IMG/VR virus record: IMGVR_UViG_3300037485_000262
Location: 1-22,240 of that record
DNA: 22,240 bases
Strand: one strand, 5' to 3'
DNA from: a virus
Shown in pieces: positions 4,725 through 18,659 of this stretch (its first letter is position 1; the number at the start of each line of letters is the position of its first letter). The position numbers and the translations under genes are program-made. The notes below the pieces were generated by a model. The model was not told where the DNA came from and searched no databases. It was given only the letters and a program-made list of their open reading frames with translations.

Positions 4725-4970
4725 ATGGAGCAGGACCTTATTTTAGGAGAATCGGATGAGGTTGAAGAAGTAGAGGAAGCGGAAGGGTATAGTTACCCCG
4801 AGTACATATCTGCCTCCGTTGAGGTCCTAACTATGCTTGAATCTTCCAATCCTATGACCAAAGAGGAGGTGGAAAAGGTCCAAGAACTAAAGAAACTTTG
4901 TTTTGAAATGCTTGAATTTTCGGTAAAATCCATGCATGAAACGCTATTTACTAATGACATAGACTGTTGA
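4725..4970 (+). CDS. Small acidic protein of unknown function
   Basis: An 81-aa protein with a very acidic N-terminal segment (ESDEVEEVEEAEGYSYPEY) and a helical remainder. It starts two bases after the phosphoesterase stop and is the last gene before a strong terminator, so it is the end of the late transcript. The ORF is clear from spacing, but I recognise no family. Confidence 0.7.
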   Translation: MEQDLILGESDEVEEVEEAEGYSYPEYISASVEVLTMLESSNPMTKEEVEKVQELKKLCFEMLEFSVKSMHETLFTNDIDC

Positions 4971-4994
4971 TTTTTAAAGTTTTAATGTGATTTG

Positions 4995-5029
4995 AACCCC
5001 TGGAGTTTCTACTTTGGGGGTTTTTGTTT
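4995..5029 (+). terminator. Strong intrinsic terminator ending the late operon
   Basis: Bases 4995-5006 (AACCCCTGGAGT) pair continuously with 5011-5022 (ACTTTGGGGGTT) around the loop TTCT. This gives a 12-bp stem with three G-U pairs, and the T-rich tract TTTTTGTTT runs on from its 3' arm. It lies 25 bases after the acidic-protein gene and 44 bases before the early promoter, separating the two transcription units. Confidence 0.85.
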
Positions 5030-5072
5030 GGGGGTAAATGCAAAAAAATATTTTAAAAAAGATTAAAAAATG

Positions 5073-5103
5073 TTTGGTAGTATGAAAAAAAGTATTATCT
5101 TTG
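5073..5103 (+). promoter_or_regulatory. Bacteroidota-type promoter (TTTG-N19-TATCTTTG)
   Basis: TTTG at 5073-5076 is followed after exactly 19 bases by TATCTTTG at 5096-5103, matching the -33/-7 consensus TTTG/TAnnTTTG of the primary Bacteroidota sigma factor. The expected start of transcription, a few bases downstream, falls at or just before the leader motif TCAAATCACA (5109-5118). It drives the early block starting at 5132. Confidence 0.85.
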
Positions 5104-5131
5104 ACATATCAAATCACAAAAACAAAACAAA

Positions 5132-5329
5132 ATGAACACTCAAATCATTGACTTGAAAAAAAGGAACTATGTAAACATGATTTCAAGAAGTACCGAGTAC
5201 ACAGTTAATCAAGTATTGGACTTTGCTGAAAAAACTTTTGGTATTAGACCTGCTTCTGTTGAACGAGGTTCGTGTTTACCGGGAATTAATTTTGAGTATG
5301 TAGTTACTTATTGGGTTTGCTTTGAATAG
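5132..5329 (+). CDS. Small early protein of unknown function
   Basis: A 65-aa protein, first gene after the consensus promoter, with an A-rich leader (AAAACAAAACAAAATG) of the kind favoured by Bacteroidota ribosomes. No domain recognised; the sequence is soluble and mixed. First-in-operon position and strong promoter suggest very early expression, where phages often keep small host-takeover proteins, but nothing in this sequence proves that. Confidence 0.68.
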   Translation: MNTQIIDLKKRNYVNMISRSTEYTVNQVLDFAEKTFGIRPASVERGSCLPGINFEYVVTYWVCFE

Positions 5330-5408
5330 CAAACCGTTGTTTTAAACATATCTTAAATTAATTCAATAACCTCAGGGGTGCAGCATCCTTCCAACTGCAA
5401 CAAATCAC

Positions 5409-5483
5409 ATGAAAAAGTCAACTATTCAAACCATCATTATCATCATTCTTTGTATTGCATTCTGCTTTGCAGATAACATCTAA
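5409..5483 (+). CDS. 24-residue single-span membrane peptide
   Basis: An ATG joined to the leader motif CAAATCACA (its last A is the A of the ATG) opens a 24-aa peptide: basic start MKKSTIQT, hydrophobic core IIIIILCIAFCF, then ADNI. The same leader precedes better-supported genes, which argues that this very short frame is translated. It could be a membrane-active or leader peptide. Function unknown. Confidence 0.45.
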   Translation: MKKSTIQTIIIIILCIAFCFADNI

Positions 5484-5494
5484 AATCAAATCAC

Positions 5495-5701
5495 ATGAAC
5501 CAACTACCAAAATGGGGCGACCTAAACACTTATGAACGGCACAAGTTACTCGGAGAGTTAATTGATGCCATGATATATTCGGGCGAAGCAGTCCACTATC
5601 TTAGCACAAGCGTTGAGCAGTTTAGAGCAATGGGATGGGTAAGGTCAATCATAATGCCCGAAGTAGATTTAAACAAGTACACTAACAATAATCAAAACTA
5701 A
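5495..5701 (+). CDS. Small early protein of unknown function
   Basis: A 68-aa soluble protein with an ATG fused to the leader motif TCAAATCACA (5486-5495). It has a helical region around YERHKLLGELIDAMIYSG and a polar Asn-rich end. No domain recognised. It sits four bases before the XRE regulator gene and is probably co-transcribed with it. Confidence 0.66.
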   Translation: MNQLPKWGDLNTYERHKLLGELIDAMIYSGEAVHYLSTSVEQFRAMGWVRSIIMPEVDLNKYTNNNQN

Positions 5702-5705
5702 AACA

Positions 5706-5876
5706 ATGACTAAAGAAGAACTCAGAAAAATCAGAAGGGCAAAGGATGTAACCCAAGAAAAGTTAGCATCTATCTCAGGTATCAGCCTTGCAACCATTAA
5801 CCGAGCAGAAAAGACTGGTAAGGTTAGACTTCAAACAATGCAACTTTTATTTGAAACATTAAACAAAATTTCTTAA
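5706..5876 (+). CDS. Minimal XRE/Cro-type helix-turn-helix regulator
   Basis: A 56-aa protein that is almost entirely one HTH_3 domain: LRKIRRAKDVTQEKLASISG, then ISLATINRAEKTGKV and a closing helix LQTMQLLFETLNKIS. The helix-turn-helix lies around residues 16-36. Proteins this size (Cro-like) bind operators as dimers and regulate early phage transcription. Its place near the start of the early operon fits feedback control. No partner repressor or integrase was seen, so it is not evidence of lysogeny by itself. Confidence 0.85.
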   Translation: MTKEELRKIRRAKDVTQEKLASISGISLATINRAEKTGKVRLQTMQLLFETLNKIS

Positions 5877-5897
5877 CTTTAACTAAAATCAAATCAC

Positions 5898-6155
5898 ATG
5901 ACTTACGTTACCGCAAATGTTACAATGCCTAAAGAATGGTTCAACGCAAATGTTGACCTCCCTTGCACCGCTGGTGCTTTCGTTACCGCTAAAGATGGAG
6001 AATGGGAAATCAATGTTAGGTACATCAACTTCCCAGGGTGGTATGTCTTTAACCTTAAACCCGAATTTAAGCGAGATGTTTATGCATTGGTAGAAGAAAA
6101 GTGCATCCAAAAGTATGCCGATGAAAAACTAAAGCAGGAAGATTATGTATTATGA
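5898..6155 (+). CDS. Small early protein of unknown function
   Basis: An 85-aa protein whose ATG overlaps the leader motif TCAAATCACA (5889-5898). Aromatic and beta-type segments (GEWEINVRYINFPGWYVFNL) are followed by a charged helix to the end. No recognised domain. It overlaps the following frame by 11 bases. Confidence 0.66.
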   Translation: MTYVTANVTMPKEWFNANVDLPCTAGAFVTAKDGEWEINVRYINFPGWYVFNLKPEFKRDVYALVEEKCIQKYADEKLKQEDYVL

Positions 6156-6474
6156 CCGAATAGAGATGACCTTAGAGGTAAGGGGCGAAGTTAGAGCAAC
6201 CGCTTACCCTTTAAGGTGTCATGAAAGCATAGAACGGCAAAGGCATCAATGGTATTATTTTTATGGGTTAAAAAGCATTAAAGACTGGGAGATATTCATT
6301 ACTCAAAAGTCTACGATGCAAAACTCCTCACCTTTCAGAATAGAGAAACCATTTCCTTATCATATCAAATCACAACAAAATGAATCAACAGAATCAGAAC
6401 CAACAGACATCCATTGCGAATCAGCTAATCCTTCAGGGGGACTTGAGCAAGTTGTCGGCAAACGACAAGGTTAA
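6145..6474 (+). CDS. Unknown protein, 3' end overlapping the recombination gene
   Basis: A 109-aa frame starting at ATG 6145 inside the end of the previous gene. The first ~75 residues (for example WYYFYGLKSIKDWEIFITQ) look like an ordinary protein and fill a space that would otherwise hold no gene. The last ~32 residues are read from the start of the next gene in another frame and look like a chance extension. ATG 6166 is an alternative start. Moderately sure it is coding; function unknown. Confidence 0.5.
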   Translation: MYYDRIEMTLEVRGEVRATAYPLRCHESIERQRHQWYYFYGLKSIKDWEIFITQKSTMQNSSPFRIEKPFPYHIKSQQNESTESEPTDIHCESANPSGGLEQVVGKRQG

Positions 6475-7096
6475 GTATTATAACGGGTATTGCGAAAGGA
6501 TGGGGTTAGACCCTTTTACCAAACCTTTTGACATCCTTAGACTTAATGGCAAAGAGGTACTATACTGCACAAGGTCAGGAACTCAACAACTTAACAAACT
6601 GCACAAGGTTTCTCATTTGATTACCAGTAGAGATACCAACCAAGATGCAGGGGTTTACATTGTAACAAGCAAGGCATCCCTCCCTGATGGTAGGTGTACG
6701 GAATCCATTGGGGCAGTAAACATTGCAGGTCTTAAAGGTGAGGCTTATGCTAATGCCATTATGAAGGCAGAAACCAAGGCAAAACGGAGGGCAACACTTG
6801 ACCTATTAGGATTGGGTGTCTTGGATGAATCAGAGGCAGAATCAATCCCTAATGCAACCACAGTGGCATTGCAGACAATGGTTGAAGCATTGCCTCAGAT
6901 GGAAGTAGAAGCGGTAGAGGTTATAGAGGAAGATGAGCAGTTGAGTATTGGTAGGTTAATGATTGCCATAAAGAAAGCGGAAAGCGTTACAGAACTGAAG
7001 CAGATTTATGAGGCAAACAAGCACAAAGTAGAAACAAATGCATTTGTAAAACAAGAACTTAAAACCAAGAAGAATGAACTCCTTAGCACTAAATGA
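6380..7096 (+). CDS. Putative ssDNA-annealing-type recombination protein
   Basis: A 238-aa protein. The conserved-looking part spans residues about 30-155: VKYYNGYCERMGLDPFTKPFD, then LNGKEVLYCTRSGTQQLNKLH and AYANAIMKAETKAKRRATLD followed by LLGLGVLDESE. This resembles the RecT/Red-beta-like annealing proteins of phages, where 'C...GLDP...PF' and 'AETKAKRRAT' segments recur. Those proteins pair single strands during phage recombination. The C-terminal third is acidic then basic and probably variable. The start at ATG 6380 follows TCAAATCACA (6365-6374). An SSB-like gene and nuclease genes downstream support a recombination role. The family assignment is from memory of motifs and could be wrong in detail. 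Confidence 0.55.
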   Translation: MNQQNQNQQTSIANQLILQGDLSKLSANDKVKYYNGYCERMGLDPFTKPFDILRLNGKEVLYCTRSGTQQLNKLHKVSHLITSRDTNQDAGVYIVTSKASLPDGRCTESIGAVNIAGLKGEAYANAIMKAETKAKRRATLDLLGLGVLDESEAESIPNATTVALQTMVEALPQMEVEAVEVIEEDEQLSIGRLMIAIKKAESVTELKQIYEANKHKVETNAFVKQELKTKKNELLSTK

Positions 7097-7505
7097 ACTG
7101 AAAATTGCAGATATTGCACCGAGCAAGTTCGGCATTGAACTGGTAGCAGATTCCATCCAAGAGCAAGTTAATGAGGGGTTAGTTGACCCATTGGAACTCG
7201 CTATTAAGTTTAACTGCTTAGAACAATTGGTTAAATCGGTAAAAACCCGAATAACCGACAATGTTCTTACAGAACTTACAAAGCATCCAAAAGGTAAGGC
7301 AGAGGTACTTGGGGCATCAGTTTCGGAAATGGTAACTATCAAGTATGATTACTCCGACCTCCCAGGGTGGACCGAACTTGAAGAACAAATCAAGGTATTA
7401 AAAGAGCAACAAAAGGAGATTGAGGACAAGGAAAGAACCTACCATAAAGGCGACCTTCCAATAAAGTCAGCATCTTCTACATTCAAAATTCAATTATCAA
7501 AATAA
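7074..7505 (+). CDS. Phage protein of unknown function in the recombination block
   Basis: A 143-aa helical protein overlapping the recombination gene by 23 bases. The N-terminal half carries LNELKIADIAPSKFGIE and a helix-rich stretch. The C-terminal half has YDYSDLPGWTELEEQIKVL followed by a coiled coil, about residues 98-123, then a Ser/Thr-rich end. Proteins of this layout recur next to annealing proteins in Bacteroidota phages, as far as I recall, without known function. It is probably a partner of the recombination or SSB proteins, which is inference from neighbourhood. Confidence 0.65.
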   Translation: MNSLALNELKIADIAPSKFGIELVADSIQEQVNEGLVDPLELAIKFNCLEQLVKSVKTRITDNVLTELTKHPKGKAEVLGASVSEMVTIKYDYSDLPGWTELEEQIKVLKEQQKEIEDKERTYHKGDLPIKSASSTFKIQLSK

Positions 7506-7511
7506 ACAAGT

Positions 7512-7778
7512 ATGCAAAAGTTAATCAGCCTTTCTATTGATGTAAGTAAAATCAACGCAAAACGCCTTTACAAAGGCAAAAAAGGACAGTACCTATCTGC
7601 AACCCTATTCCTCAAGGAAGAAACCGACCAGTATGGTAACAATGGTTTTATCGTAGAATCCATTACCAAAGAGGAAAGGGAAGCAGGACAGAAGGGTACT
7701 ATTTTAGGGAATGCCAAGTTTATGGCAACTGGTAGCAAACCTGCTCAAAATGATGATTACGGGGATGTACCATTTTAA
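7512..7778 (+). CDS. SSB-like protein with acidic C-terminal tip
   Basis: An 88-aa protein with a beta-rich body (LISLSIDVSKIN, then QYLSATLFLKEETDQYG and GFIVESITKEE) and the ending DDYGDVPF. That acidic tip with a terminal aromatic is the hallmark of single-strand DNA-binding proteins, where it recruits partner enzymes. It is shorter than bacterial SSB and could be a minimal OB fold. Its position between recombination and replication genes agrees. I am fairly sure of the tail and less sure of the fold. Confidence 0.6.
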   Translation: MQKLISLSIDVSKINAKRLYKGKKGQYLSATLFLKEETDQYGNNGFIVESITKEEREAGQKGTILGNAKFMATGSKPAQNDDYGDVPF

Positions 7779-7785
7779 TCTAACC

Positions 7786-7809
7786 GGGTGGGGTTTAGCG
7801 ACCTCACCC
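7786..7809 (+). terminator. Stable hairpin between SSB-like and nuclease genes
   Basis: GGGTGGGGT (7786-7794) pairs with ACCTCACCC (7801-7809) around the loop TTAGCG: nine pairs, one of them G-U. It starts eight bases after the SSB-like stop. The following sequence, ATTTAAAT, is not a clean T tract, so it may act as a leaky terminator, an attenuator or an mRNA stabiliser. The leader motif TCAAATCACA follows at 7817. Confidence 0.5.
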
Positions 7810-7826
7810 ATTTAAATCAAATCACA

Positions 7827-8291
7827 ATGAAAGTTACTTTAAATTACCAAGAGCAAATTATTGTTGAGGAAATAGCAAAAGCAAGGCATTTGCAAAATAT
7901 AGATAGGGGAAGCAGGTCTTTTAAGATGGGAGGTGGGGATGACTTACAAATTAATCTTGAAGGTACTGCTGGGGAATTTGCATTTTGTAAACTAAAAAAT
8001 GTCTACCCTGATATGAGCATTGAGCAACCAATGCCATTTGATTGCTTTTTAAATGAGTTCGGGTTTATTGATGTAAAAACCACAAAGAAGTTAGATGGGA
8101 TGCTTTTGGTAGGTAAATGGAAATCTAAGTCAATACCTCAATACTATGCCTTGATGGTCGGGAAGATGCCTTATTTTGAGTTTAAAGGGTACTTCCCAGG
8201 GGCAGAGGTTTTTAAACCGGAGAACATCGTTGACTTAGGTCATGGAGAAACCTACGGGATATCCCAAGACAGATTAATTATGTACTTATGA
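7827..8291 (+). CDS. Putative PD-(D/E)XK-type nuclease
   Basis: A 154-aa protein. I start it at ATG 7827, directly after TCAAATCACA (7817-7826); a GTG reading from 7788 would run through the upstream hairpin. The order GTAGEFAFCK (E50), then D72 in PFDCFL, then IDVKTTKK (D82, K84) matches the acidic-residue and D-x-K pattern of the restriction-endonuclease-like fold. A following GKWKSKSIPQYYALMVG segment fits its closing strands and helix. It could act in recombination or on host DNA. The fold call is from pattern only; DNA cleavage is not shown. Confidence 0.55.
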   Translation: MKVTLNYQEQIIVEEIAKARHLQNIDRGSRSFKMGGGDDLQINLEGTAGEFAFCKLKNVYPDMSIEQPMPFDCFLNEFGFIDVKTTKKLDGMLLVGKWKSKSIPQYYALMVGKMPYFEFKGYFPGAEVFKPENIVDLGHGETYGISQDRLIMYL

Positions 8292-8392
8292 AACTAATCA
8301 AAATTGTTTACTTTTTTATTTTTTCAGTACCATTGGCAATCTGCTTTTATATTAGTGCTTCAATTTTATCACTATTAAAAACAAGGTTTTGA
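8288..8392 (+). CDS. 34-residue membrane peptide
   Basis: An ATGA overlap with the nuclease gene opens a 34-aa frame with a basic start (MKLIKIVY) and one hydrophobic span (FFIFSVPLAICFYISASILSL), ending LKTRF. Its stop overlaps the TTG start of the next gene. Overlap on both sides supports translation. Function unknown. Confidence 0.5.
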   Translation: MKLIKIVYFFIFSVPLAICFYISASILSLLKTRF

Positions 8393-8637
8393 AGGATATA
8401 ACATATCATTTAGAGAATGCAGTTGAGTACCTTGTCTATGATTTATCCATTGAGGATATAGAAGAAAGGAAGAAAAAAGCGGTTACTTATCGGTCAGGCA
8501 AGTGCGTTTGTAACTTTATGGGTTATCCTCCGAACAAAATTTCAGACTTGAGGCAGGTAGGAAGGAAGGTTATAAGCAGACTGGATGGCAAAACCTATGC
8601 GGTCCGAGTAAAGAAAAAAGAAGTTACAAATGAATAA
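8389..8637 (+). CDS. Small basic protein of unknown function (TTG start)
   Basis: An 82-aa frame with no early in-frame ATG; the TTG at 8389 overlaps the previous stop, which suggests re-initiation. The sequence is basic, with a helical start and the segment YRSGKCVCNFMGYPPNK. The CxC pair could bind metal, but two cysteines alone are weak evidence. No family recognised. Confidence 0.58.
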   Translation: MKDITYHLENAVEYLVYDLSIEDIEERKKKAVTYRSGKCVCNFMGYPPNKISDLRQVGRKVISRLDGKTYAVRVKKKEVTNE

Positions 8638-8770
8638 TTTTGTATATTCGGGGTACTTGGTAGGGGAACACCAAGTGCATAAAAAACTTATTAATGCCTT
8701 AGAAAGGTTCGGAGGTTTGCAAAAGCAGACCTGTTCCCCCCGAATCTTTTTAAGGTATTCTTTTTTATGA
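8630..8770 (+). CDS. Possible 46-aa coupled protein before the replication initiator
   Basis: An ATG at 8630 overlaps the previous gene by 8 bases, and its TGA at 8768-8770 overlaps the next ATG (ATGA). This is the coupling seen between many real genes here. The first 30 residues (VYSGYLVGEHQVHKKLINAL) look protein-like; the end is odd. The same bases fold into a strong multi-hairpin structure (8646-8745), so the stretch may instead work as RNA. Both readings stay open. Confidence 0.4.
   Translation: MNNFVYSGYLVGEHQVHKKLINALERFGGLQKQTCSPRIFLRYSFL
8646..8745 (+). other. Multi-hairpin element upstream of the replication initiator
   Basis: A closing helix ATTCGGGG (8646-8653) pairs with CCCCGAAT (8738-8745). 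Inside it are three hairpins: ACTTGGT/ACCAAGT (8655-8661/8670-8676), CCTT/AAGG (8697-8700/8704-8707) and AGGTTTGC/GCAGACCT (8713-8720/8725-8732, loop AAAA, one G-U). This makes a junction of up to four helices, followed by CTTTT. It could be a regulatory RNA in the leader of the initiator gene or part of an origin. Pairings are seen; the role is inferred. Confidence 0.45.
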
Positions 8771-9513
8771 ACACTGGACAAATCGTAAAGAGCAAGTCAA
8801 CCGAAAGGTTTACAACTTTACCAAATGAGTTGATAAAGTCCAAGACTTTGTCACTTGATGAGAAAGGTCTTTTGAGTTATTTATTATCACTTCCTTCAGA
8901 TTGGGTTATCTACAAAAAGAATCTTTATAACAACCTTCCTGATAAACCTGGGACAATAGACAGAGCATTTAAGGGATTGCAAAACAAGGGTTATATCTTA
9001 TCAATAAAGATGCATGACCTTGGTACTGGTAGGTTTGTTGGATGGAATCATATAGTATATGACTTACCTGCCGAGAACCAAGATATCCGAGTTCGGGAAA
9101 CACCGACATCGGAAATTACCGACTTCGGTGAAAGTGCCATTATACAAAAGACTAATTCCATACAAAAGAAAGATTTAATACAAATAAAAGAGTTAGTCTT
9201 TATTTCAGATGATTGGGAAGATGCTTGGAAAGGTTGGATGGAATACAAGAAGGTTGAGCATGGCAATAAGTTCAAAAGTTCTAAAACCGAACAAACTGCC
9301 ATAAACAACTTGGTAGACCTTGCAGGTGGTGACTTGGAAACTGCGAAAAAAGTTATCAATCAAAGTATCTCAAACAATTACAAAGGATTATTTAAACTAA
9401 AAGAAACAAAGAATGCTACCACTAAATCAAGTTCTGACATCTATGCAGAACGCAGAGCAGAACTCCATCAGTACGCAGACAAGATTGACCAACTCAGAGG
9501 AATTAGACCTTGA
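8767..9513 (+). CDS. Winged-helix replication initiator-type protein
   Basis: A 248-aa protein. Residues about 14-80 form a winged helix-turn-helix of the HTH_36/replication-organiser kind: FTTLPNELIKSKTLSLDEKG, LLSYLLSLPSDWVIYKKNLY and GTIDRAFKGLQNKGYIL. The middle is variable. Residues about 150-215, with WEDAWKGWMEYKKVEHG and a helical repeat before NNYKGLFKLKE, resemble the C-terminal part of phage replication proteins of this type. Such proteins bind the origin and recruit the host helicase. The start overlaps the upstream small frame by ATGA. The next gene overlaps its end by 101 bases. Confidence 0.72.
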   Translation: MNTGQIVKSKSTERFTTLPNELIKSKTLSLDEKGLLSYLLSLPSDWVIYKKNLYNNLPDKPGTIDRAFKGLQNKGYILSIKMHDLGTGRFVGWNHIVYDLPAENQDIRVRETPTSEITDFGESAIIQKTNSIQKKDLIQIKELVFISDDWEDAWKGWMEYKKVEHGNKFKSSKTEQTAINNLVDLAGGDLETAKKVINQSISNNYKGLFKLKETKNATTKSSSDIYAERRAELHQYADKIDQLRGIRP

Positions 9514-10171
9514 GAAGTTTAAACTATCAAGAACCAGCGAACCAATTAAGAATCTAAGTAGTGGGTTGGTAATTGATGAACTTTTGAACGGGATGCAGAA
9601 ACTTGGGGTTAAAGGTGACAAGATGCCAAACAATGCAGACCTGCTTATTATGTACAAGTCAATAATGGAAGAATACCCTAATATAAAAGTCGGTGAGATA
9701 TCTCTTGCCTTTGACCTTGCTGCAAAGGGTAAACTTGACATAGAGGCAGAAACTTATCAAAATTTCTCAATGCTTTACCTTCACCGATTACTTAGGGCAT
9801 TTGCAAGGTATGGGATGCAGAAACTTAATGAGATAAAACCAGTAGCAGAAAGCAAGTGGCAACCAAGATTTATCTCGGATGATGAAAAGATAGAAACTGC
9901 TTTTGATTGCTTCAAAAAGTTTCGCCAATGGGATAACATAGTATTCGGGGTGGATGTGTTTAAAATCCTGCATAAACGAGGTAAAATCATTGTAACCCCA
10001 TCTGAAACCTATGAGAAGGTTCTGACCGCTATGAATGAGAAAATGTTTGAAGGTAGTAGGCAAGACAAGATAGATATCAAAAACAAGATGAAAGATGATG
10101 ACTACATGGAACATCAATGCTATCGGATGGCGGTTGCGGATTACTTTACTAAATTAATTAACAGAGGGTAA
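9413..10171 (+). CDS. Replication-associated protein, possible helicase loader or partner
   Basis: A 252-aa mostly helical protein overlapping the initiator by 101 bases; the A-rich leader AAAGAAACAAAGA favours ATG 9413 over ATG 9443. The central part, MPNNADLLIMYKSIMEEYP through ETYQNFSMLYLHRLLRAF, is helix-rich and conserved-looking. There is no Walker A motif, so it is not an AAA+ loader. A gene of this kind directly after a winged-helix initiator often works as a replication accessory factor in phages, but I do not recognise a named family. Confidence 0.6.
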   Translation: MLPLNQVLTSMQNAEQNSISTQTRLTNSEELDLEKFKLSRTSEPIKNLSSGLVIDELLNGMQKLGVKGDKMPNNADLLIMYKSIMEEYPNIKVGEISLAFDLAAKGKLDIEAETYQNFSMLYLHRLLRAFARYGMQKLNEIKPVAESKWQPRFISDDEKIETAFDCFKKFRQWDNIVFGVDVFKILHKRGKIIVTPSETYEKVLTAMNEKMFEGSRQDKIDIKNKMKDDDYMEHQCYRMAVADYFTKLINRG

Positions 10172-10476
10172 TGGACTTAACGGCAGGAATGATAACAAAG
10201 TTTGCACTAATTAAGTTGGAAGGACTTGGGTGCTATGTTTGGAGAAACAACAATTTATCTATCCCAGGCAGGAAGTTCATTGGTGAGAGAGGGGTTGCTG
10301 ATATCATAGGTTTTCACAAAGCAACTGGCAAGGCGGTCTATTGCGAGGTTAAAACTATTGCGGATAAACTTAGTGATTATCAGATAGTTTTTCTCAATAG
10401 AGCAAAAAATGCAGGTTGTTTATGCTACCTTGCAACAGATAACAAAGGCATCCCCGAACTTAACGAATGGCAATAA
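10171..10476 (+). CDS. VRR-NUC-type nuclease
   Basis: A 101-aa protein matching the small stand-alone VRR-NUC nucleases of phages. GERGVADIIGF carries D44, VYCEVKT carries the E59-x-K61 pair, and DYQIVFLNRAKNAGC gives Q71 and the closing helix. These PD-(D/E)XK enzymes act on branched or flap DNA such as Holliday junctions. It joins the previous gene by TAATG and overlaps the sigma-like gene by 10 bases, consistent with a role in processing replicating or recombining DNA. Confidence 0.82.
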   Translation: MDLTAGMITKFALIKLEGLGCYVWRNNNLSIPGRKFIGERGVADIIGFHKATGKAVYCEVKTIADKLSDYQIVFLNRAKNAGCLCYLATDNKGIPELNEWQ

Positions 10477-10982
10477 CAAAGAACGATATCATCCAAAGTC
10501 TATACACCGACAAGGATATAGATAATGCCATAAAGAAGATGCAACCGATTGAGTTGCAAGATGACTTGAGGCAGGAGATGTTTATGGTTCTTTGTGAGAT
10601 GGATGAGGTAAAGTTTATGTCAATGCATAATAACGGGTTCATAAAGTTCTACTTGGTACGCACAATGCTTTCAATGATAAAGTCTGATAGGTCAACCTTC
10701 TTCAATAAGTTTAGGCGAACATTTACAGAATGGACCGAGCAACACGATGCACCCGATTCATCAGATACCATCCAAGCGGATGAGATTGCGGTTAAACTAA
10801 ACAACTCCCTAAAGATTCTGCATTGGTACGAACTTGAGATATTCCGCTTGTACTCCGAGAATGGACAGAACATAATGTCCCTTTCACGGGACACTGGCAT
10901 CCCTTATAGGTCCCTTATGAAAACCATTAAAAAAACTCGCACACTTTTAAAATATAAAATCAAAAACCATGTTACTCCTTAA
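10467..10982 (+). CDS. Sigma-70-like transcription factor
   Basis: A 171-aa protein with the layout of a small sigma factor. A helical N-terminal half (about 15-75, with LQDDLRQEMFMVLCEM and YLVRTMLSMIKSDRS) resembles sigma region 2. A C-terminal helix-turn-helix (about 122-162, with WYELEIFRLYSENG, IMSLSRDTGIPYRSLMKTI) resembles region 4. Phage factors of this kind redirect host RNA polymerase to middle or late promoters. The region-4 part is clearer than region 2, so a non-sigma late activator with a similar HTH remains possible. Confidence 0.65.
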   Translation: MAITKNDIIQSLYTDKDIDNAIKKMQPIELQDDLRQEMFMVLCEMDEVKFMSMHNNGFIKFYLVRTMLSMIKSDRSTFFNKFRRTFTEWTEQHDAPDSSDTIQADEIAVKLNNSLKILHWYELEIFRLYSENGQNIMSLSRDTGIPYRSLMKTIKKTRTLLKYKIKNHVTP

Positions 10983-11220
10983 AGTAGTTATCGCATCACT
11001 TTTCTCGGTCTTTTACATAATTGATATGGCAAGACTGCCTGAACGTTTTAAAGTCAATTTTAAGCCTTTTAACTGCAATATGTGTCTAAGCGTATATGTT
11101 GCCATTGCTTTGTACTTACTGCCTACAATCGCCTTAAATTGCGTTTTAGTGGCATCCGTGAGTGGGGTATCTGCTCCGCTATTCAGAAACCTATTAAATA
11201 ACATATTTTTTAAAAAATAA
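10969..11220 (+). CDS. Small two-span membrane protein with CxxC motif
   Basis: An 83-aa protein with an N-terminal hydrophobic span (about 2-19), then RFKVNFKPFNCNMCLSVYVA with C36 and C39 just before a second span (about 41-62), and a basic C-terminal tail. The 'PFxCxxCLS' turn before a membrane helix recurs, as I recall, in small phage membrane proteins of unknown function. It overlaps the sigma-like gene by 14 bases. Confidence 0.65.
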   Translation: MLLLKVVIASLFSVFYIIDMARLPERFKVNFKPFNCNMCLSVYVAIALYLLPTIALNCVLVASVSGVSAPLFRNLLNNIFFKK

Positions 11221-11222
11221 CT

Positions 11223-11393
11223 ATGGAAGGAAAAGTCTGCCCAAAGTGCAAAGCATACAAGGAAAAGAAGTTATTTAGCAAATCAACTGCAAGGACCGAC
11301 CGAATGGCGGTCTACTGCAAAATGTGTGAGAATGCACAACGAAAAGCAAAAGCGGAAGAACGCAAAAGAGATGCAATGTTTGATATCTTTTAG
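11223..11393 (+). CDS. 56-aa zinc-binding protein (two CxxC pairs)
   Basis: MEGKVCPKCKAYKEK gives the first cysteine pair (C6, C9) and MAVYCKMCEN the second (C32, C35), followed by a long basic helix. The pattern CxxC...F.K...D....YC..C is the four-cysteine knuckle often found at the start of phage HNH/endonuclease VII-like proteins. Here it stands alone, without the nuclease part. It may bind DNA or a protein partner. Confidence 0.75.
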   Translation: MEGKVCPKCKAYKEKKLFSKSTARTDRMAVYCKMCENAQRKAKAEERKRDAMFDIF

Positions 11394-11450
11394 TTTAATT
11401 AAATCATAAATAACGTAGTAAATCACCTTAAAAATCAAATCAGATAAACT

Positions 11451-11747
11451 ATGACACAAGAAGATGAAAAGTTTATTCAAGACAATATCTACAACTTTGA
11501 ATGTGTCAAGGTTGGGTTCATGAAGAACCTACCCTTGCATATCTTGGTAGGATATGAGCAGATTTATCGTAGATACTTAGATGGTGGGTTTATCCTTACC
11601 TCCTGGTGTGCTAACTGTGTGGCAGATATGATGAAGCGGTTGAGTAATTACTGGGATGCATACCAAGCAAGTAAACTCATAGAGGTTGAGCAACCTATCC
11701 AAGAAGCACCGAAAAAGAAAGGTAGACCATTTAAAAACAAACAATGA
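11451..11747 (+). CDS. Unknown protein with AT-hook-like basic tail
   Basis: A 98-aa protein. The body is helical with a cysteine-containing segment, TSWCANCVADMMKRLSNYW. The end, PKKKGRPFKNK, contains a GRP core flanked by basic residues, as in AT-hook minor-groove binders. A diverged leader motif, TCAAATCAGA, lies at 11435-11444. It overlaps the first glycosyltransferase by ATGA, so it is the first gene of that coupled group. Function unknown. Confidence 0.66.
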   Translation: MTQEDEKFIQDNIYNFECVKVGFMKNLPLHILVGYEQIYRRYLDGGFILTSWCANCVADMMKRLSNYWDAYQASKLIEVEQPIQEAPKKKGRPFKNKQ

Positions 11748-12748
11748 GAATAATAGCAGTCGGGCAGCGTAACTCAGGGGTATCTTTCCATAGGTTATTC
11801 AATCCCATTATCTATCTTCCAAAGGACTTCGCAATGATGACCGATACCATCACCGAGGAAGAACTTGCCAAAGGATATGACATAATGTTTATCAATCGGT
11901 ATGTAGCAGGGGTTGAGGTAGATGAATTGGTAAGACTGCGTGAGAAATACGGGTTTAAATTAGTGGTTGATATTGATGACTATTGGCATCTTGACCCGTG
12001 GCATATCTTGTACGGAAAATATCCAACTCAAAAGGTCATAGACCATATCAAGGTAGCAGACTTGGTAATATGCTCAAACAATGATTTGGCAGTTTATGTA
12101 GATGAACTTAATCCGAATTGGATAGTAATACCAAACGCATTGCCTTATGGTGAGGACCAGTTTACGGATGTAAAGACTGAATCAGATAGGGTTAGGTTTG
12201 TTTATGCAGGGTCAGTAACACATGAGAAGGATATTGCAATCCTAAAAAACCCAATGAAAAGGGTGGCAGGGGATTCCTTCACGAAAGATAACTCAAGGTT
12301 TATCCTTTGCGGTTATAGTCAAGACAAGCAGGTTGCAAACACATGGGGCAGAATGATTAACGATTACCTTTGCGGATTCAATGTTGATGGTTACATACGG
12401 GAAGCGTTACCAGTGGATGAGTACATGAACTTTTACAATGAAGCAGATGCTTGTTTGATTCCTTTGGTACAAAGCAAGTTTAACTCAATGAAGTCTAACC
12501 TCAAAGTCTTGGAGGCAGCAACAAAGAATGCAGTAGTAATAGCATCAAATGTAAAACCTTATTCTGAATGCCCACACATTATTCCGGTAGGTTATCAAGC
12601 AGGTTGGTTCGGAAATATTAAAAAAGTTTGCAAAGATGCTATATATAGACAAGAGATGGGGATTGCTAATGGCGAATATTGTAGAGAACATTTTAATCTC
12701 GTCAAGGTAAATAAGTTAAGAAGTCAAGTTTTTGAATCAATAATATGA
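11744..12748 (+). CDS. GT-B fold glycosyltransferase
   Basis: A 334-aa protein with the two-domain layout of GT-B (GT4-like) enzymes. The N-terminal domain begins MRIIAVGQRNSGVSFHRLF and contains LVVDIDDYWHLDP (about 73-85) and ADLVICSNNDLA. A linker, WIVIPNALPYG, leads to the nucleotide-sugar domain with RFVYAGSVTHEKDI (about 151-164), ADACLIPLVQSKFNSMKSNLK and LEAATKNAVVIAS. The 'SNLKVLEA' segment fits the donor-binding E of retaining GT-B enzymes. It would move a sugar from a nucleotide donor. The acceptor is unknown. Confidence 0.82.
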   Translation: MRIIAVGQRNSGVSFHRLFNPIIYLPKDFAMMTDTITEEELAKGYDIMFINRYVAGVEVDELVRLREKYGFKLVVDIDDYWHLDPWHILYGKYPTQKVIDHIKVADLVICSNNDLAVYVDELNPNWIVIPNALPYGEDQFTDVKTESDRVRFVYAGSVTHEKDIAILKNPMKRVAGDSFTKDNSRFILCGYSQDKQVANTWGRMINDYLCGFNVDGYIREALPVDEYMNFYNEADACLIPLVQSKFNSMKSNLKVLEAATKNAVVIASNVKPYSECPHIIPVGYQAGWFGNIKKVCKDAIYRQEMGIANGEYCREHFNLVKVNKLRSQVFESII

Positions 12749-12987
12749 AAGCAGAGTTACACTTTAACCTTGATGATTATGATGATAAGATAGAGCATCT
12801 TAGATGCGTTCAAGCATCAGACTTGTGCAGTGCCATTCATGAATTTATTTACAATACAAAGAAGGGTTTGAAGTATGAAGCAGAGGTAAAGAATCTTGAT
12901 GCATACGATGCAATAAATACAGTCTATGAAAAGTTTTGGGATATACTTAAAGAGCATAACTTAGATATAGATAAACTCATACAATGA
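12745..12987 (+). CDS. Small helical acidic protein of unknown function
   Basis: An 80-aa protein coupled by ATGA to the glycosyltransferases on its 5' side and to a zinc-ribbon peptide on its 3' side. It is acidic and helical (LDDYDDKIEHLRCVQA and AINTVYEKFWDILKEHN). I see no domain. Co-translation suggests a role tied to the cassette, or a structural regulator with a job of its own. Confidence 0.65.
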   Translation: MKAELHFNLDDYDDKIEHLRCVQASDLCSAIHEFIYNTKKGLKYEAEVKNLDAYDAINTVYEKFWDILKEHNLDIDKLIQ

Positions 12988-13103
12988 AATACCAACCTAA
13001 ATGGGTAACGTGTAAAAACTGCAACAAGAAGTACACCATTACCTTAATCAAGTTAAAGGCAAAAGAAAGCAAGTGCGGTCATTGTGGAACTATAAATAAA
13101 TAA
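12984..13103 (+). CDS. 39-aa zinc-ribbon peptide
   Basis: MKYQPKWVTCKNCNKKYTI provides C10 and C13, and SKCGHCGTINK provides C31 and C34, giving a complete four-cysteine zinc ribbon and little else. The ATG overlaps the previous stop by 4 bases and the stop is one base before the next start, so it is embedded in the glycosyltransferase group. Zinc ribbons of this size often serve as protein or RNA adaptors. Partner unknown. Confidence 0.75.
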   Translation: MKYQPKWVTCKNCNKKYTITLIKLKAKESKCGHCGTINK

Positions 13104-13104
13104 A

Positions 13105-13887
13105 ATGAAAAGAGTATTAATCGCAATGGCGGTCCATGATACAGAGGAGAACAAGAGGACCGAACTAACAAAGAAAGTCCTTGATAGTATATATATTACA
13201 GACATTTTTGAGAACCATGACTTTTGGGTGGTAGATAATAACTCTTGCCAAGCAACAAAGGACATCCTTAAAATATATGCAGATGATGGTTACATAAACC
13301 TAATCACCAATGAGCAGAACATAGGAACTGCTGAGGCGGTTAACCTTGCTTGGAAGTACAGAGTACCTGGGCAACATTGCATAAAGATGGATAACGATGT
13401 TATTATCTATTCTGATTCTTGGATTACTGAAATGGTTGAGGCAATTGAAAGGGATAAGAGAATAGGCATAGTTGGACTAAAAAGAAAAGATTGTTGGGAA
13501 GAACCGAATCACGCTTTACCTGATTGGAGAAGCGAATTAATTATGCTTCCTCATATGGCAGGGCAAAGGTGGATGATAGTTGAGAAGTGCCATCACATTA
13601 TCGGTACTTGTCAGATGTACTCCTCAGCATTATTAGACAAAATAGGGTATCTTTACCAACCTTCCCTTTATGGTTATGATGATGTCCTTGCATCACATAG
13701 GTCAACAGTTGCAGGGATGTGGAATGTGTTCTTGCCTCATATTGAGATTGACCACATTGACCCGGGCGAAACCGAGTACCAATCTTGGAAGGAGAAACAT
13801 AGTAGCGAAGTAACCCAACAAGTCATCAAGATAACCCATGAGTATTATCACGGGGTAAGACCAATATATTATAATCCGTACCAATGA
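13105..13887 (+). CDS. GT-A fold (family 2-like) glycosyltransferase
   Basis: A 260-aa protein with the GT2 features. An N-terminal nucleotide-binding strand (RVLIAMAVHD) leads to WVVDNNSCQATKDIL (D44-N45-N46-S47) and NEQNIGTAEAVNLAW. The metal-binding D-x-D follows in KMDNDVIIYS (D96, D98). Later, CQMYSSALLDKIGYLYQPS and GYDDVLASHRS fit the acceptor/catalytic half. It would transfer a sugar from a nucleotide donor with inversion. Its 3' end overlaps the third transferase by ATGA. Confidence 0.85.
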   Translation: MKRVLIAMAVHDTEENKRTELTKKVLDSIYITDIFENHDFWVVDNNSCQATKDILKIYADDGYINLITNEQNIGTAEAVNLAWKYRVPGQHCIKMDNDVIIYSDSWITEMVEAIERDKRIGIVGLKRKDCWEEPNHALPDWRSELIMLPHMAGQRWMIVEKCHHIIGTCQMYSSALLDKIGYLYQPSLYGYDDVLASHRSTVAGMWNVFLPHIEIDHIDPGETEYQSWKEKHSSEVTQQVIKITHEYYHGVRPIYYNPYQ

Positions 13888-14507
13888 AAGTAATAGTTTC
13901 TTTAGATAATCCGAATCACCCAGGGTGGTTGAAGTTAGAGGAATCCTTGAAACGGCACGGATGGGAATATGTAACCATTGTCAAAGAGTGGAAAGGGTTT
14001 GGAACTAAGATAATCGGATTGTACGAATACCTTGTTAATGCCTATGATGAGGACTTTATATATCTTGATGCATATGATAACTACTGCATTGCACCAATGG
14101 ATGAGTTTGCATATAAATATAAGGCAGGAAGTGGATTGATTATAAGTGCAGAGAAAGGATGTTACCCTGATTCGCATAATCGTGGCAAGTTTCCAACAGT
14201 ACCTCACGAATGGAAGTATCTAAACTCGGGGCAGATATATGGTAGAAGGGAGGACTTTATGAAGTTGTTTGAACAGAACCCGGTCCGCTTTGAAGATGAT
14301 GACCAAAGGTGGTACACAGACAGATTCCTTGAGAGAAGGTCAAGCATCAGTCTTGATTACTGCAACATCTTTCAATCGGTTGCATTTGAAGTGGAAGGTG
14401 ACTTTACTTTAACGTACAATAGATTGTACAACAATAAAACCCATACCTTCCCTATGTTTATTCACGGCAACGGGAAAACGGATATGACTAAATTTTATCA
14501 ACTATGA
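13884..14507 (+). CDS. PLOD/procollagen-type glycosyltransferase
   Basis: A 207-aa protein matching the glycosyltransferase domain known from animal lysyl hydroxylase (PLOD/LH3) and found in many viruses and bacteria. The ordered motifs are FIYLDAYDNYC (D62-A-Y-D65, metal site), LIISAEKGCYPD, KYLNSGQIYG, the acidic DDDQRWYTDRFL, LDYCNIFQSV and FIHGNGK at the end. It transfers a sugar to an unidentified acceptor. In the animal family the acceptor is a hydroxylysine glycoside, but no hydroxylase gene is visible here. Coupled by ATGA on both sides. Confidence 0.82.
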   Translation: MKVIVSLDNPNHPGWLKLEESLKRHGWEYVTIVKEWKGFGTKIIGLYEYLVNAYDEDFIYLDAYDNYCIAPMDEFAYKYKAGSGLIISAEKGCYPDSHNRGKFPTVPHEWKYLNSGQIYGRREDFMKLFEQNPVRFEDDDQRWYTDRFLERRSSISLDYCNIFQSVAFEVEGDFTLTYNRLYNNKTHTFPMFIHGNGKTDMTKFYQL

Positions 14508-15175
14508 TGGATGAACTGGTTAAGGATTACACCGACAAGGTGAATGCCGACAAAGAACTCAAAGCATATCGGGATTGGATAGAAGCAAACGCATTCGGAT
14601 TCGGGGAAAGATGCTTTCTTTGGATGTGGAATGAGATAGTAAAGAAGATGCCTGATGAATTTACCTTTATGGAGATAGGTGTCTTTAGAGGGCAGATACT
14701 TGCAATAGTAAGCCTACTTGCAGAAAGGCACGGCAAGAAGGTGAGGCGAATAGGCATCACACCTCTTGACACATCCGATGGGCATTGGGAGAGTGACTAC
14801 GAAGCAGACATAATAAGACTGCATGATGTGTTCAATATTAAGGATGACTATGAGTTAATCCGCTTGGATTCAACCAATCCAAATGCAGTTAAGTTGGCAT
14901 CACAGAACCCACCCGATGTACTATACATAGATGGAGGACATACTTACGAAGTAGTCAAGTCAGACCTTACCAACTATCTTCCAATCCTCAAAGTAGGTGG
15001 CACATTGGTAATTGATGATTGCAATAATGCCATCCCAATGCCTTGGGGTTACTTCCAAGGTATTCAATCGGTATCTATTGCGGTTGATGAAGTCCTCCCA
15101 AGAGAGGGAAGCACAGAATATTGGAAGCATGAGTTGAACTTGGTTCATAATAGAGTATTAACTAAACTTAAATAA
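14504..15175 (+). CDS. Class I SAM-dependent methyltransferase
   Basis: A 223-aa protein of the Methyltransf_24-like type. FMEIGVFRGQILAIV (about 55-69) is the SAM-binding loop, DVLYIDGGHTYEVVKSDL (about 138-155) the second core strand with the DGGH motif, and GGTLVIDDC (165-173) the third. Enzymes of this group often methylate sugars or small molecules. Lying directly after three glycosyltransferases with an ATGA overlap, it may cap the added glycan. That assignment is inferred from neighbourhood; it has no DNA-methyltransferase motif. Confidence 0.8.
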   Translation: MMDELVKDYTDKVNADKELKAYRDWIEANAFGFGERCFLWMWNEIVKKMPDEFTFMEIGVFRGQILAIVSLLAERHGKKVRRIGITPLDTSDGHWESDYEADIIRLHDVFNIKDDYELIRLDSTNPNAVKLASQNPPDVLYIDGGHTYEVVKSDLTNYLPILKVGGTLVIDDCNNAIPMPWGYFQGIQSVSIAVDEVLPREGSTEYWKHELNLVHNRVLTKLK

Positions 15176-16332
15176 TGAATCCTATTAAAGTTAAAATCAG
15201 CGAAGTAAAGTCTAACCCGAACAATCCAAGAATCATCAAGGATGATAAGTTCCAAAAGTTAGTCAAGTCAATCAAGGAGTTCCCTGAGATGCTCAACATT
15301 AGACCAATAGTGGTTAATGCTGATATGGTGGTCCTCGGTGGCAATATGCGACTAAAGGCTTGTAAGGAAGCAGGGATTAAAGAAGTAGCAATCATTAAAG
15401 CATCTGACTTAACCGATGAACAACAGAAGCAGTTTATCATTAAGGATAACGTAGGATTCGGTGAGTGGGATTGGGAGGACTTAGCGAACAACTGGGATGT
15501 TGAACAGTTAACAGATTGGGGGTTAGATATTCCCGACTTTAAACCTGAGGTCCTTGAAGCAGAAGAAGATGACTTTGCAGTACCCGATGGGGGAATAGAA
15601 ACCGATATCGTGCTTGGTGATTTATTTGAGATAGGAGAACATAGATTACTTTGTGGAGATTCAACGGATAGCGACCAAGTAGCAAAGTTGATGAATGGGC
15701 AGAAGGCAGAACTTGTATTTACAGACCCACCTTATGGGAATGGTTCAAGCGGAAAGTATGGTAGGGGACAACTTGGGGTAAGAACTATTTTGAATGATGA
15801 TACGTTTGATTGCGTGAACGATTTTTTTAATTTAAGGATTTGCGATGCATACGTTTTCTTTTTGCAATGGAGAACCTTTAAGGAAGCAATACAAACTCTT
15901 GAAAATAACGAACTGCAACTTAAAACGATTGCAGTTTGGGATAAGAAAAACGCAGGTTTAAATGGTGCAGGAGGAATGGCAGAACAATGGGAGGCAATTA
16001 TAGTAGCAGGGAATATTAAATATTCAAGGTTTGGTGGTAATGTTTTTAACGTAAGCAGGGAACAAAAGAAAAGAATTGATAGTCCTCACCCACATCAAAA
16101 ACCTATTGAACTACTGAGCAATATTTTGGAATACTTCCAAGATTACAACTTGTTAGTTGACCCATTTAGCGGTTCGGGTTCAACAATGGTGGCAAGTCAT
16201 CAACTCAAACGTAAGTGCTATGGCATGGAATTAGACCCTAAATATTGCCAAGTCATAGTGGATAGGATGCTCAAACTTGACCCAAGTTTAGAGGTCAAGA
16301 GGAACGGGGTAACATATAACAAAACAAAGTAA
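15175..16332 (+). CDS. DNA methyltransferase with N-terminal ParB-like domain
   Basis: A 385-aa fusion. Residues about 1-90 form a ParB/sulfiredoxin-like domain (LVKSIKEFPEML, VNADMVVLGGNMRLKACKEAG). Then comes a beta-type N6-adenine/N4-cytosine methyltransferase: catalytic DPPY at 184-187, later HPHQKPIELL (305-314), then the SAM motif DPFSGSGSTMVA (329-340) and YGMELDPKYC. The order DPPY before FSGSG defines the beta group. No restriction partner is visible. It probably shields the phage DNA from host nucleases or marks it for packaging. The start joins the previous gene by TAATG. Confidence 0.9.
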   Translation: MNPIKVKISEVKSNPNNPRIIKDDKFQKLVKSIKEFPEMLNIRPIVVNADMVVLGGNMRLKACKEAGIKEVAIIKASDLTDEQQKQFIIKDNVGFGEWDWEDLANNWDVEQLTDWGLDIPDFKPEVLEAEEDDFAVPDGGIETDIVLGDLFEIGEHRLLCGDSTDSDQVAKLMNGQKAELVFTDPPYGNGSSGKYGRGQLGVRTILNDDTFDCVNDFFNLRICDAYVFFLQWRTFKEAIQTLENNELQLKTIAVWDKKNAGLNGAGGMAEQWEAIIVAGNIKYSRFGGNVFNVSREQKKRIDSPHPHQKPIELLSNILEYFQDYNLLVDPFSGSGSTMVASHQLKRKCYGMELDPKYCQVIVDRMLKLDPSLEVKRNGVTYNKTK

Positions 16333-16339
16333 TAACATC

Positions 16340-16720
16340 GTGGCAAAGAAGATTGCAGGAAGGAACGGAGGTACATTAATTGTACCTGAAAAGGGAGAAA
16401 CCAACAACCCAAACGGCAGACCGAGAAAGTATGTTTCCTTACTTAAAGAGCAAGGGTACAAACTGGCAGAGGTTAACGATTGCATCCAAGCAATTATGTC
16501 AATGGATATGCAGGAACTCAAAGCGGTATGGGATAACCCGAAGGCAACTGTACTGGAGAAAACCATTGCAGGGGCATTGAGGAAGTCATTGGAGAAGGGC
16601 AGCCTTTATTCCATTGATACCCTACTTACCAGGGTGTACGGCAAACCAAAGGAAACTGCTCACATAACAAATGATGGTAAGATTGAGGTGGTATTTACTA
16701 AGGGCAAAACGATTCTATGA
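16340..16720 (+). CDS. Probable terminase small subunit
   Basis: A 126-aa protein with a GTG start and no early ATG. The N-terminal NNPNGRPRKY is a basic DNA-binding patch common in phage packaging proteins. The helical body ends with SIDTLLTRVYGKPKET, often seen in small terminase-like proteins of Bacteroidota phages. It overlaps the large terminase by ATGA, which is the main support. Small subunits recognise the packaging site and load the motor. Confidence 0.65.
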   Translation: MAKKIAGRNGGTLIVPEKGETNNPNGRPRKYVSLLKEQGYKLAEVNDCIQAIMSMDMQELKAVWDNPKATVLEKTIAGALRKSLEKGSLYSIDTLLTRVYGKPKETAHITNDGKIEVVFTKGKTIL

Positions 16721-17874
16721 TTATTGAACTACCCGAACCACATAAGAATCAAATCGGTATCATTGAATCAGAAGCAAGGTTCAGAGTGGTTATGTGTGGC
16801 AGGAGGTTTGGCAAGTCAGAACTCAGTCAGGTAGAAATCATTAAGAATGCCATTGTGGGGCAATCTGTTGCCTATATTACCCCCACTTATAACCTTGCTA
16901 AGACTTTCTTTGACAAACTTGCTAAAGCGGTTCCTTTCGCCTCTAATCGGTCTGATTTAACTATTGAGTTCCCTAATGGGGGTTCTGTTCAGTTCTTTAC
17001 TGGGGAAAGGTTGGATAACCTGCGAGGCAGGAAGTTTCACTTAGTTGTGGTAGATGAGGCAAGTTTCATCCCTGACCTTGAAGGCGGTTGGTTGAATAGT
17101 ATTAGACCTACGCTAACGGATTACAAAGGAAAGGCATTGTTCTTATCTACTCCAAAGGGTAAGAACTACTTTTACTCTTTGTTTATGAAAGGGAATAGTG
17201 GTGAGGAAGATTGGCAGAGTTTCAAGTTCAGCACATACGATAACCCATACATAGATAAGAGTGAGGTGGATAGTGCAAGGATGCAACTGCCCGAGGTAGT
17301 CTTTGAGCAGGAGTACATGGCAAACCCTGCCGAGAATGCTGCCAATCCTTTTGGGTCTGCATTCATAAGGCAATGTATCTACCCGATGAGCAATGGACCA
17401 GTCGCTTGTTATGGGATTGACCTTGCCAAGTCGGTTGACTTTACAGTTATTACGGGACTTGATAAGAATGGTTCTGTCTGTCATTTTGAGAGGTTTCAGA
17501 AGGATTGGAGGCAAACTAAGGAGTATATCATCAATCTGCCAAAAGCACCCATCCTGATGGATTCTACTGGGGTAGGCGACCCTATATTTGAGGATATGCA
17601 ACGGGAGGGTCTTGATGTCCAAGGGTATAAGTTTAGTTCTACCTCAAAGCAGATGCTAATGGAGGGTCTTGCATCTGCCATACACCAAAGGAAGATAACC
17701 TTCCCAAGCGGTCCTATTGTAGATGAACTTGAAATCTTTGAGTATCAGTACACTTCCTACGGGGTAAAGTATTCCGCACCCCAGGGATTCCATGATGACT
17801 GCGTTGTTTCCCTTTCCCTTGCTTGGCAACACCTTCAGAAGAATGTAGGGAGCGGGAGATATAGTTTTGCGTAG
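16717..17874 (+). CDS. terL: Terminase large subunit
   Basis: A 385-aa packaging motor. The ATPase has Walker A CGRRFGKSE (G28-K33-S34), a Q-like IESEARFRVV start, Walker B LVVVDEAS (D113, E114) and the coupling motif LFLSTPKGK (142-149). The RNase-H-type nuclease has D235 in YGIDLAKSVDF, D282 in ILMDSTGVGDP and D360/D361 in FHDDCVVSLSLAW. It is compact but contains both halves. With the small subunit it cuts the concatemer and pumps DNA into empty heads. The 3' end overlaps a G-rich tract and is followed by a promoter-like element rather than by portal genes. Confidence 0.95.
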   Translation: MIIELPEPHKNQIGIIESEARFRVVMCGRRFGKSELSQVEIIKNAIVGQSVAYITPTYNLAKTFFDKLAKAVPFASNRSDLTIEFPNGGSVQFFTGERLDNLRGRKFHLVVVDEASFIPDLEGGWLNSIRPTLTDYKGKALFLSTPKGKNYFYSLFMKGNSGEEDWQSFKFSTYDNPYIDKSEVDSARMQLPEVVFEQEYMANPAENAANPFGSAFIRQCIYPMSNGPVACYGIDLAKSVDFTVITGLDKNGSVCHFERFQKDWRQTKEYIINLPKAPILMDSTGVGDPIFEDMQREGLDVQGYKFSSTSKQMLMEGLASAIHQRKITFPSGPIVDELEIFEYQYTSYGVKYSAPQGFHDDCVVSLSLAWQHLQKNVGSGRYSFA

Positions 17875-17947
17875 GGGGAAACTAGGGGGAAGTCGGGGAG
17901 AAACTACCTAAACAAATTATTTTTTAAAATAAATAAGAAAAAAAGTG

Positions 17948-17974
17948 TTTGTATTGATTTAGTTTGTATATTTG
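17948..17974 (+). promoter_or_regulatory. Promoter-like element after terminase
   Basis: TATATTTG at 17967-17974 matches the TAnnTTTG -7 box. A TTTG at 17948-17951 lies 15 bases upstream instead of the usual 19, so the -33 part is weak. As at the early promoter, a copy of the leader motif (CAAATCACA, 17980-17988) starts a few bases after the -7 box, which strengthens the case. Confidence 0.5.
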
Positions 17975-17993
17975 AAAAACAAATCACAACACA

Positions 17994-18203: not shown

Positions 18204-18206
18204 AAA

Positions 18207-18255
18207 ATATTTGCTAAAATAGTTAGCATTTGTGAAAAATGATTATATTTGCTAA
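18207..18255 (+). repeat. Operator-like direct and inverted repeats
   Basis: ATATTTGCTAA occurs exactly at 18207-18217 and 18245-18255. Between them, TTAGCA (18223-18228) is an inverted copy of TGCTAA (18212-18217), giving a 6-bp hairpin with loop AATAG. The second copy overlaps a TATATTTG -7-like box (18244-18251). The arrangement could be a binding site for the XRE regulator or a weak terminator after the 69-aa gene. Confidence 0.45.
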
Positions 18256-18257
18256 GT

Positions 18258-18351
18258 CAATCCGAAAGATAGTAGAGTATGTTTCGGGTTTGATTCAAGC
18301 AAACCTGCTTCAATTAGACCCACCTGCTCTACCAGTGTGGGTTCTTTTTTT
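18258..18351 (+). ncRNA. Candidate terminated small RNA
   Basis: Downstream of the TATATTTG box (18244-18251), two hairpins follow. CGGGTTTG/CAAACCTG (18285-18292/18300-18307, one G-U, loop ATTCAAG) is followed by the terminator hairpin. No convincing coding frame covers the stretch. A transcript of about 90 bases starting near 18258 would end in the T tract near 18351. The 5' end is a guess; the -33 element is not visible. Confidence 0.35.
18317..18351 (+). terminator. Intrinsic terminator
   Basis: ACCCAC (18318-18323) pairs with GTGGGT (18337-18342); with one bulged T the stem continues as CTG/CAG (18324-18326/18333-18335) around CTCTAC. The T tract TTCTTTTTTT follows directly. It ends transcription from the 69-aa gene or from the candidate small RNA. 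Confidence 0.75.
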
Positions 18352-18433
18352 ACCTACCTTCGTGAATGTCACATTTGATTTATGCGTTTTTTATCTCGGT
18401 TCGGTCAAATGGTATAAGGCAATAGAATGGGAT

Positions 18434-18624: not shown

Positions 18625-18659
18625 AAACCTATCACAATGACTCCAAAATCTAAAGCAAT

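Follow-up and report, generated by a model that had tools for sequence, protein, structure and literature searches.

A putative late antisense RNA that may pair with a leader shared by early genes in phages with Bacteroidota-type leaders

The translational repressor RegA of phage T4 acts on ∼30 early/middle phage mRNAs, where it occupies the start region or the bases 5' of the AUG (PMC3014915). The c4 antisense RNA of phages P1 and P7 and the sar RNA of P22 are encoded by the phages themselves and block a ribosome binding site, and the specificity of c4 underlies the heteroimmunity of P1 and P7 (PMC12197685). Other regulatory RNAs of phages, including VpdS (phage VP882), PreS (lambda) and 24B_1, mainly have host targets or act on one phage gene, with no shared leader motif reported, and VpdS and PreS depend on Hfq (PMC12197685); known phage antisense RNAs mostly have a single target. 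3'-UTR-derived bacterial sRNAs with a terminator have an unpaired seed 5' of the intrinsic terminator and many trans targets (PMC10703908).

Here we analyse a 22,240-base IMG/VR virus record (the window, i.e. the whole stretch of DNA under study) and its relatives. Judging from sequence comparison, we think it likely that the nine-base CAAATCACA leaders of this phage are binding sites for its own antisense RNA, which would repress early genes late. As with RegA, many early genes would be repressed at their start regions, but RegA is a protein with degenerate sites, whereas the regulator here appears to be an RNA with exactly complementary sites. The c4 and sar RNAs have one target (ant), and belong to temperate phages of Shine–Dalgarno hosts; here we see several targets per genome, phages mostly without an integrase, Bacteroidota-type leaders and an element in a late 3' UTR. 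The architecture is like that of the 3'-UTR-derived bacterial sRNAs, but the element is phage-encoded, the targets are the phage's own early genes, and seed and targets co-diverge. The arrangement is undescribed in the open-access literature that we searched (subscription papers were outside the scope of the search). The features of the window are listed in Table 1.

Table 1. Late operon end, anti-leader arm, promoters and candidate target leaders in the window (predicted duplex energies in kcal/mol)
Feature	Position	Strand	Details
M15 peptidase gene	3287-3754		late operon
Metallophosphoesterase gene	3751-4722		late operon
Last gene of the late operon	4725-4970	+	81 aa, no family match; downstream of M15 peptidase and metallophosphoesterase
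Anti-leader arm UGUGAUUUGA	4970-4996	+	27 nt, unpaired 3'-UTR stretch; inverted copy, fold, conservation, covariation
Core seed TGTGATTTGA in arm	4986-4995	+	reverse complement of TCAAATCACA
Intrinsic terminator	4997-5025	+	10-bp stem 4997-5006/5011-5020, loop TTCT, T tract 5021-5025
-7 box TATCTTTG, early promoter	5096-5103	+	Bacteroidota type, TTG upstream
Candidate target copy 1	5110-5118	+	early mRNA 5' end; start codon 5132 (65 aa); duplex -15.0
Candidate target copy 2	5401-5409	+	start codon 5409; ORF 5409-5483, 24 aa hydrophobic peptide; duplex -13.0
Candidate target copy 3	5487-5495	+	start codon 5495 (68 aa); duplex -15.3
Candidate target copy 4	5890-5898	+	start codon 5898 (85 aa); duplex -16.3
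Candidate target copy 5	6366-6374	+	start codon 6380 (238 aa, weak Rad52-like single-strand annealing protein); duplex -13.7
Candidate target copy 6	7818-7826	+	start codon 7827 (DUF5843 protein); duplex -16.7
Imperfect candidate target CAAATCAGA	11436-11444	+	start codon 11451 (98 aa); duplex -12.8
-7 box TATATTTG, promoter after terminase gene	17967-17974	+	
Candidate target copy 7	17980-17988	+	start codon 17994 (69 aa, weak HNH match); duplex -11.1

A search of both strands of the window found eight exact copies of CAAATCACA, seven forward and one inverted, against a chance expectation of 0.50 copies on both strands (maximum 3 in 100 shuffles). All seven forward copies are at start codons. 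The preliminary description was correct in the positions of these seven and of the one-mismatch copy, in the spacing from motif to ATG, including three overlaps with the ATG, and in the two TAnnTTTG boxes. It went wrong in holding that no copy lies away from a start codon: the eighth exact copy is on the minus strand (4986-4994; TCAAATCACA at 4986-4995) with no start codon near, and this overlooked inverted copy is the key to the whole finding. The 24-codon ORF behind copy 2 (MKKSTIQTIIIIILCIAFCFADNI) is probably a genuine gene for a small hydrophobic peptide, and the relatives L089, L097 and L117 share its start region.

Read on the plus strand, the core seed is found 15 bases past the stop codon that ends the late operon's last gene and directly 5' of a strong hairpin and T run, with the early promoter ∼75 bases downstream of the hairpin. 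Folded alone, positions 4965-5030 give a 29-nt unpaired 5' stretch followed by one stable hairpin (-17.5 kcal/mol, z -3.4; none of 200 shuffles was as good). Every pair of the terminator stem is kept in 15 relatives, and three pairs have changed on both sides in a compensatory manner (the 16th row of this alignment is a misplaced fragment with gaps only in the stem). No known Rfam family matches the element at gathering score, and a permissive scan gave sub-threshold chance hits only. In 11 of 13 genomes, a search over 250 nt gave no promoter belonging to the RNA itself; in most clades a free sRNA would therefore have to arise by processing. The apex UUUCUA (a UUCU loop with a closing U-A pair; 5006-5011 in the window) is common to the terminators of many relatives, while the stem varies.

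The complementarity is evident: the arm RNA matches all seven leaders perfectly over 9-11 nt. Duplex energies are predicted at -11.1 to -16.7 kcal/mol with the seven exact leaders and at -12.8 with the imperfect eighth, compared with -3 to -8 kcal/mol for the other starts tested (with one exception at -11.1), and the predicted pairing spans about -24 to +9 relative to the AUG. The element resembles a trans-acting antisense sRNA in having a predicted accessible stretch complementary to several mRNA start regions, co-evolution of seed and targets in sequence, and a 3' intrinsic terminator; the pairing itself is well supported by sequence.

Relatives were collected as 160 loci in IMG/VR through homologues of the terminase and the recombinase; these contigs are metagenomic and ORF starts on them were called mechanically. 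No near relative by DNA exists among named phages, whose terminase and recombinase matches are distant. The preliminary description had tied the motif's standing to its conservation before orthologous genes and to a scarcity of copies elsewhere. The leaders are indeed kept before orthologous starts in the relatives. Counted over distinct sequence contexts, 76 forward copies precede an ORF start by a strict rule and 39 do not; many of the latter are right after the ATG of the homologue of the DUF5843 gene, ahead of ORFs of <25 codons, or at the ends of contigs, and a few fall within coding sequence. Copies elsewhere are a minority, and the conditions set in the preliminary description did not refute the motif. 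There is exactly one inverted copy per genome, and it recurs before the same terminator (18 of 19 distinct sequence contexts have it 5' of a terminator). In some relatives the 3' end of the arm drifts (TGATTCT, TGATTTA) with the leaders still CAAATCACA, leaving 7-8 bp, and good targets are missing from several genomes that do have a terminator of this kind (e.g. L168).

Divergent relatives have other leaders, and their terminator-linked arm has altered in step: TCACAATCAAAA leaders go with arm TTTTGATTGTGA (L152/L153), TAAACACAAT with ATTGTGTTTA (G020/G037), TAAACCAAACAAAA with TTTTGTTTGGTTTA (G025), and CACACTATGAAA with TTTCATAGTGTG, which also covers the start codon (L164); G041 has CAAACAAAATGAA. 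This covariation is plain across genomes: with eight seed groups, and row and column effects removed, the true assignment of seeds to leaders ranks first of 40,320 permutations. Dinucleotide shuffles within single genomes give p <0.05 in 10 of 14 genomes but are weak for G033, G037, L137 and G003 (p 0.06-0.36; clearly not significant for G003) because the arms are of low complexity, and the cross-genome permutation was therefore used. Arms and leaders alike are of low complexity, so that the cross-genome tests carry the argument, and the relatives are not phylogenetically independent, although the main tests used collapsed seed groups. Clades have different upstream genes, and the arm is therefore not a by-product of one protein. 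An unguided whole-genome scan produced false peaks where minus-strand genes have A-rich leaders, but these peaks are without terminators.

Another branch of relatives separates early from late genes by strand: the element follows an XkdF-type protease gene on the late strand, and the genes taken as early are on the opposite strand. In six non-redundant genomes, matches of at least 9 nt are found at 18 of 98 opposite-strand (minus) starts and at two of 203 same-strand (plus) starts (Fisher p 5e-8), and shuffled seeds gave 4.4 opposite-strand matches in the same genomes, at most 11; in all 14 genomes the counts are 43 of 240 and two of 478. In many clades the inverted copy reaches across the complement of ATGAAA, and anti-AUGA is found in 22 of 40 distinct arms adjoining such hairpins vs eight in shuffles. 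The clear preference for opposite-strand starts, together with the anti-AUGA arms, favours trans pairing over start codons. The terminators sit after late genes, among them endolysin-like M15 and CHAP peptidases and the XkdF protease, and the RNA is therefore placed late, the labels early and late resting on gene content. An integrase is found in only one of 19 related contigs, so that most of these phages look lytic, though the records may be incomplete.

The bacterial genomes that contain terminase relatives suggest Chitinophagaceae as hosts, with one hit in a Verrucomicrobia bin. In 60 Chitinophagaceae genomes there are 26 occurrences of CAAATCACAATG vs ∼31 of its reversed control, and in one Chitinophagaceae MAG the count of TCAAATCACA equals that of the reversed control; being at background, the motif is no leader in general use by the host. 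The leaders are A/C-rich and unstructured, matching the preference of Bacteroidota initiation, which in Flavobacterium johnsoniae relies on both low structure and adenines at -3, -6, -12 and -13 (PMC6847099).

This preference is what recommends the view that CAAATCACA is a plain translation enhancer, an A/C-rich unstructured leader repeated by selection or copying, with the inverted copy incidental; other A/C-rich leaders in distant relatives fit it as well. It explains neither the exact 9-mer, which is not enriched in the Chitinophagaceae hosts, nor the conserved inverted copy at the terminator and the covariation, and we consider it unlikely. As a reason for the exact 9-mer, the enhancer in a host that avoids Shine–Dalgarno pairing, offered in the preliminary description, finds no support, since CAAATCACAATG is at host background and the leaders of related phages differ; an enhancer role may nevertheless be additional to an antisense one, as the arm would then exploit a region that must be single-stranded. 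The other earlier suggestion, a site for an RNA- or DNA-binding regulator, comes close, with the addition that the regulator appears to be a phage-encoded RNA. If it were instead a DNA-binding protein using the motif as operator, a change of its specificity would shift all sites, the terminator one included, and give the same covariation of all copies, and a small XRE-type HTH gene (5706-5876) does lie in the early operon. We nevertheless find this quite improbable: the motif is not palindromic, its sites lie right at start codons within operons and a long way from promoters, every clade has the terminator copy in inverted rather than free orientation, and coverage of the complement of ATGAAA in many clades is unneeded by a DNA operator.

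Since pairing by itself leaves the sign of its effect undefined, a real pairing might activate or stabilise early mRNAs, protect the 3' end of the late mRNA or trap a host regulator; we hold such outcomes to be doubtful, as pairing at about -24 to +9 of the AUG should block 30S binding and the arm, which belongs to late operons, shows a preference for early starts. A small minus-strand gene that starts at the terminator with the usual leader would also account for the inverted copy, and in the clade of the window there is a 55-codon minus-strand frame from 4960. We rejected this candidate as very improbable: the frame only shadows the 81-aa plus-strand gene and is not seen in clades with other upstream genes, where the frames have 1-41 codons and are unrelated, none being conserved.

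We therefore return to the antisense reading and its possible mechanism. The antisense RNA would be the 3' end of a late transcript, consisting of the unpaired arm and the terminator hairpin, either as part of the late mRNA or as an sRNA released by cleavage, with whatever processing or chaperone it may use. As late transcripts accumulate, the arm would pair in trans with UCAAAUCACA just upstream of early-gene start codons, and in some phages over the AUG itself, and so hide the A-rich single-stranded region needed by Bacteroidota ribosomes. A duplex of 9-16 bp over the start region should block 30S binding, and it is on this ground that we propose the late 3' end or sRNA as the repressor of early genes. 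Early (replication, recombination) genes would be switched off as the late programme begins, and incoming related phages could likewise be silenced. The sequences themselves show the complementarity, the architecture, the covariation and the preference for early starts on the other strand; that the RNA exists in this form, acts late and represses is inferred from them.

If this is true, the early-to-late switch would be made through one RNA recognising a tag common to many early mRNAs, and it would reveal translation regulation in Bacteroidota, where Shine–Dalgarno pairing is unused. We give about even chances to the broader idea of a widespread class of phage RNAs, with an antisense arm in a late 3' UTR against shared early leaders and a code-like divergence of seeds that possibly defines cross-silencing. 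Co-diverging seed–leader codes predict such cross-silencing between phages, which is directly testable.

A second terminator-linked anti-start arm (the complement of CCAAACGCTATGAAAA) is found behind the XkdF-type protease gene in phages that carry the first element too (G003:17408, G005:28184, G033:24077 and G034:24001, in oriented contig coordinates), and may possibly have a host target. Among the named Bacteroidota phages 11b, B124-14 and FCL-2, only two have weak candidates, which we do not claim: in Flavobacterium phage 11b (L252, 11145), an AT-rich arm 5' of a terminator that follows the major capsid gene, and in FCL-2 (L254, 28697), one between two operons.

Elsewhere in the window, ∼450 bases past the HNH-like ORF (18204-18659) hold scant convincing coding sequence and repeated short complementary stretches; this region has no Rfam match and may represent a structured RNA or what is left of a mobile element. 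Glycosyltransferase-like and related genes are in series between the replication and terminase genes (11744-15175), and the gene at 15175-16332 encodes a ParB-N domain fused to an N6/N4 DNA methylase.
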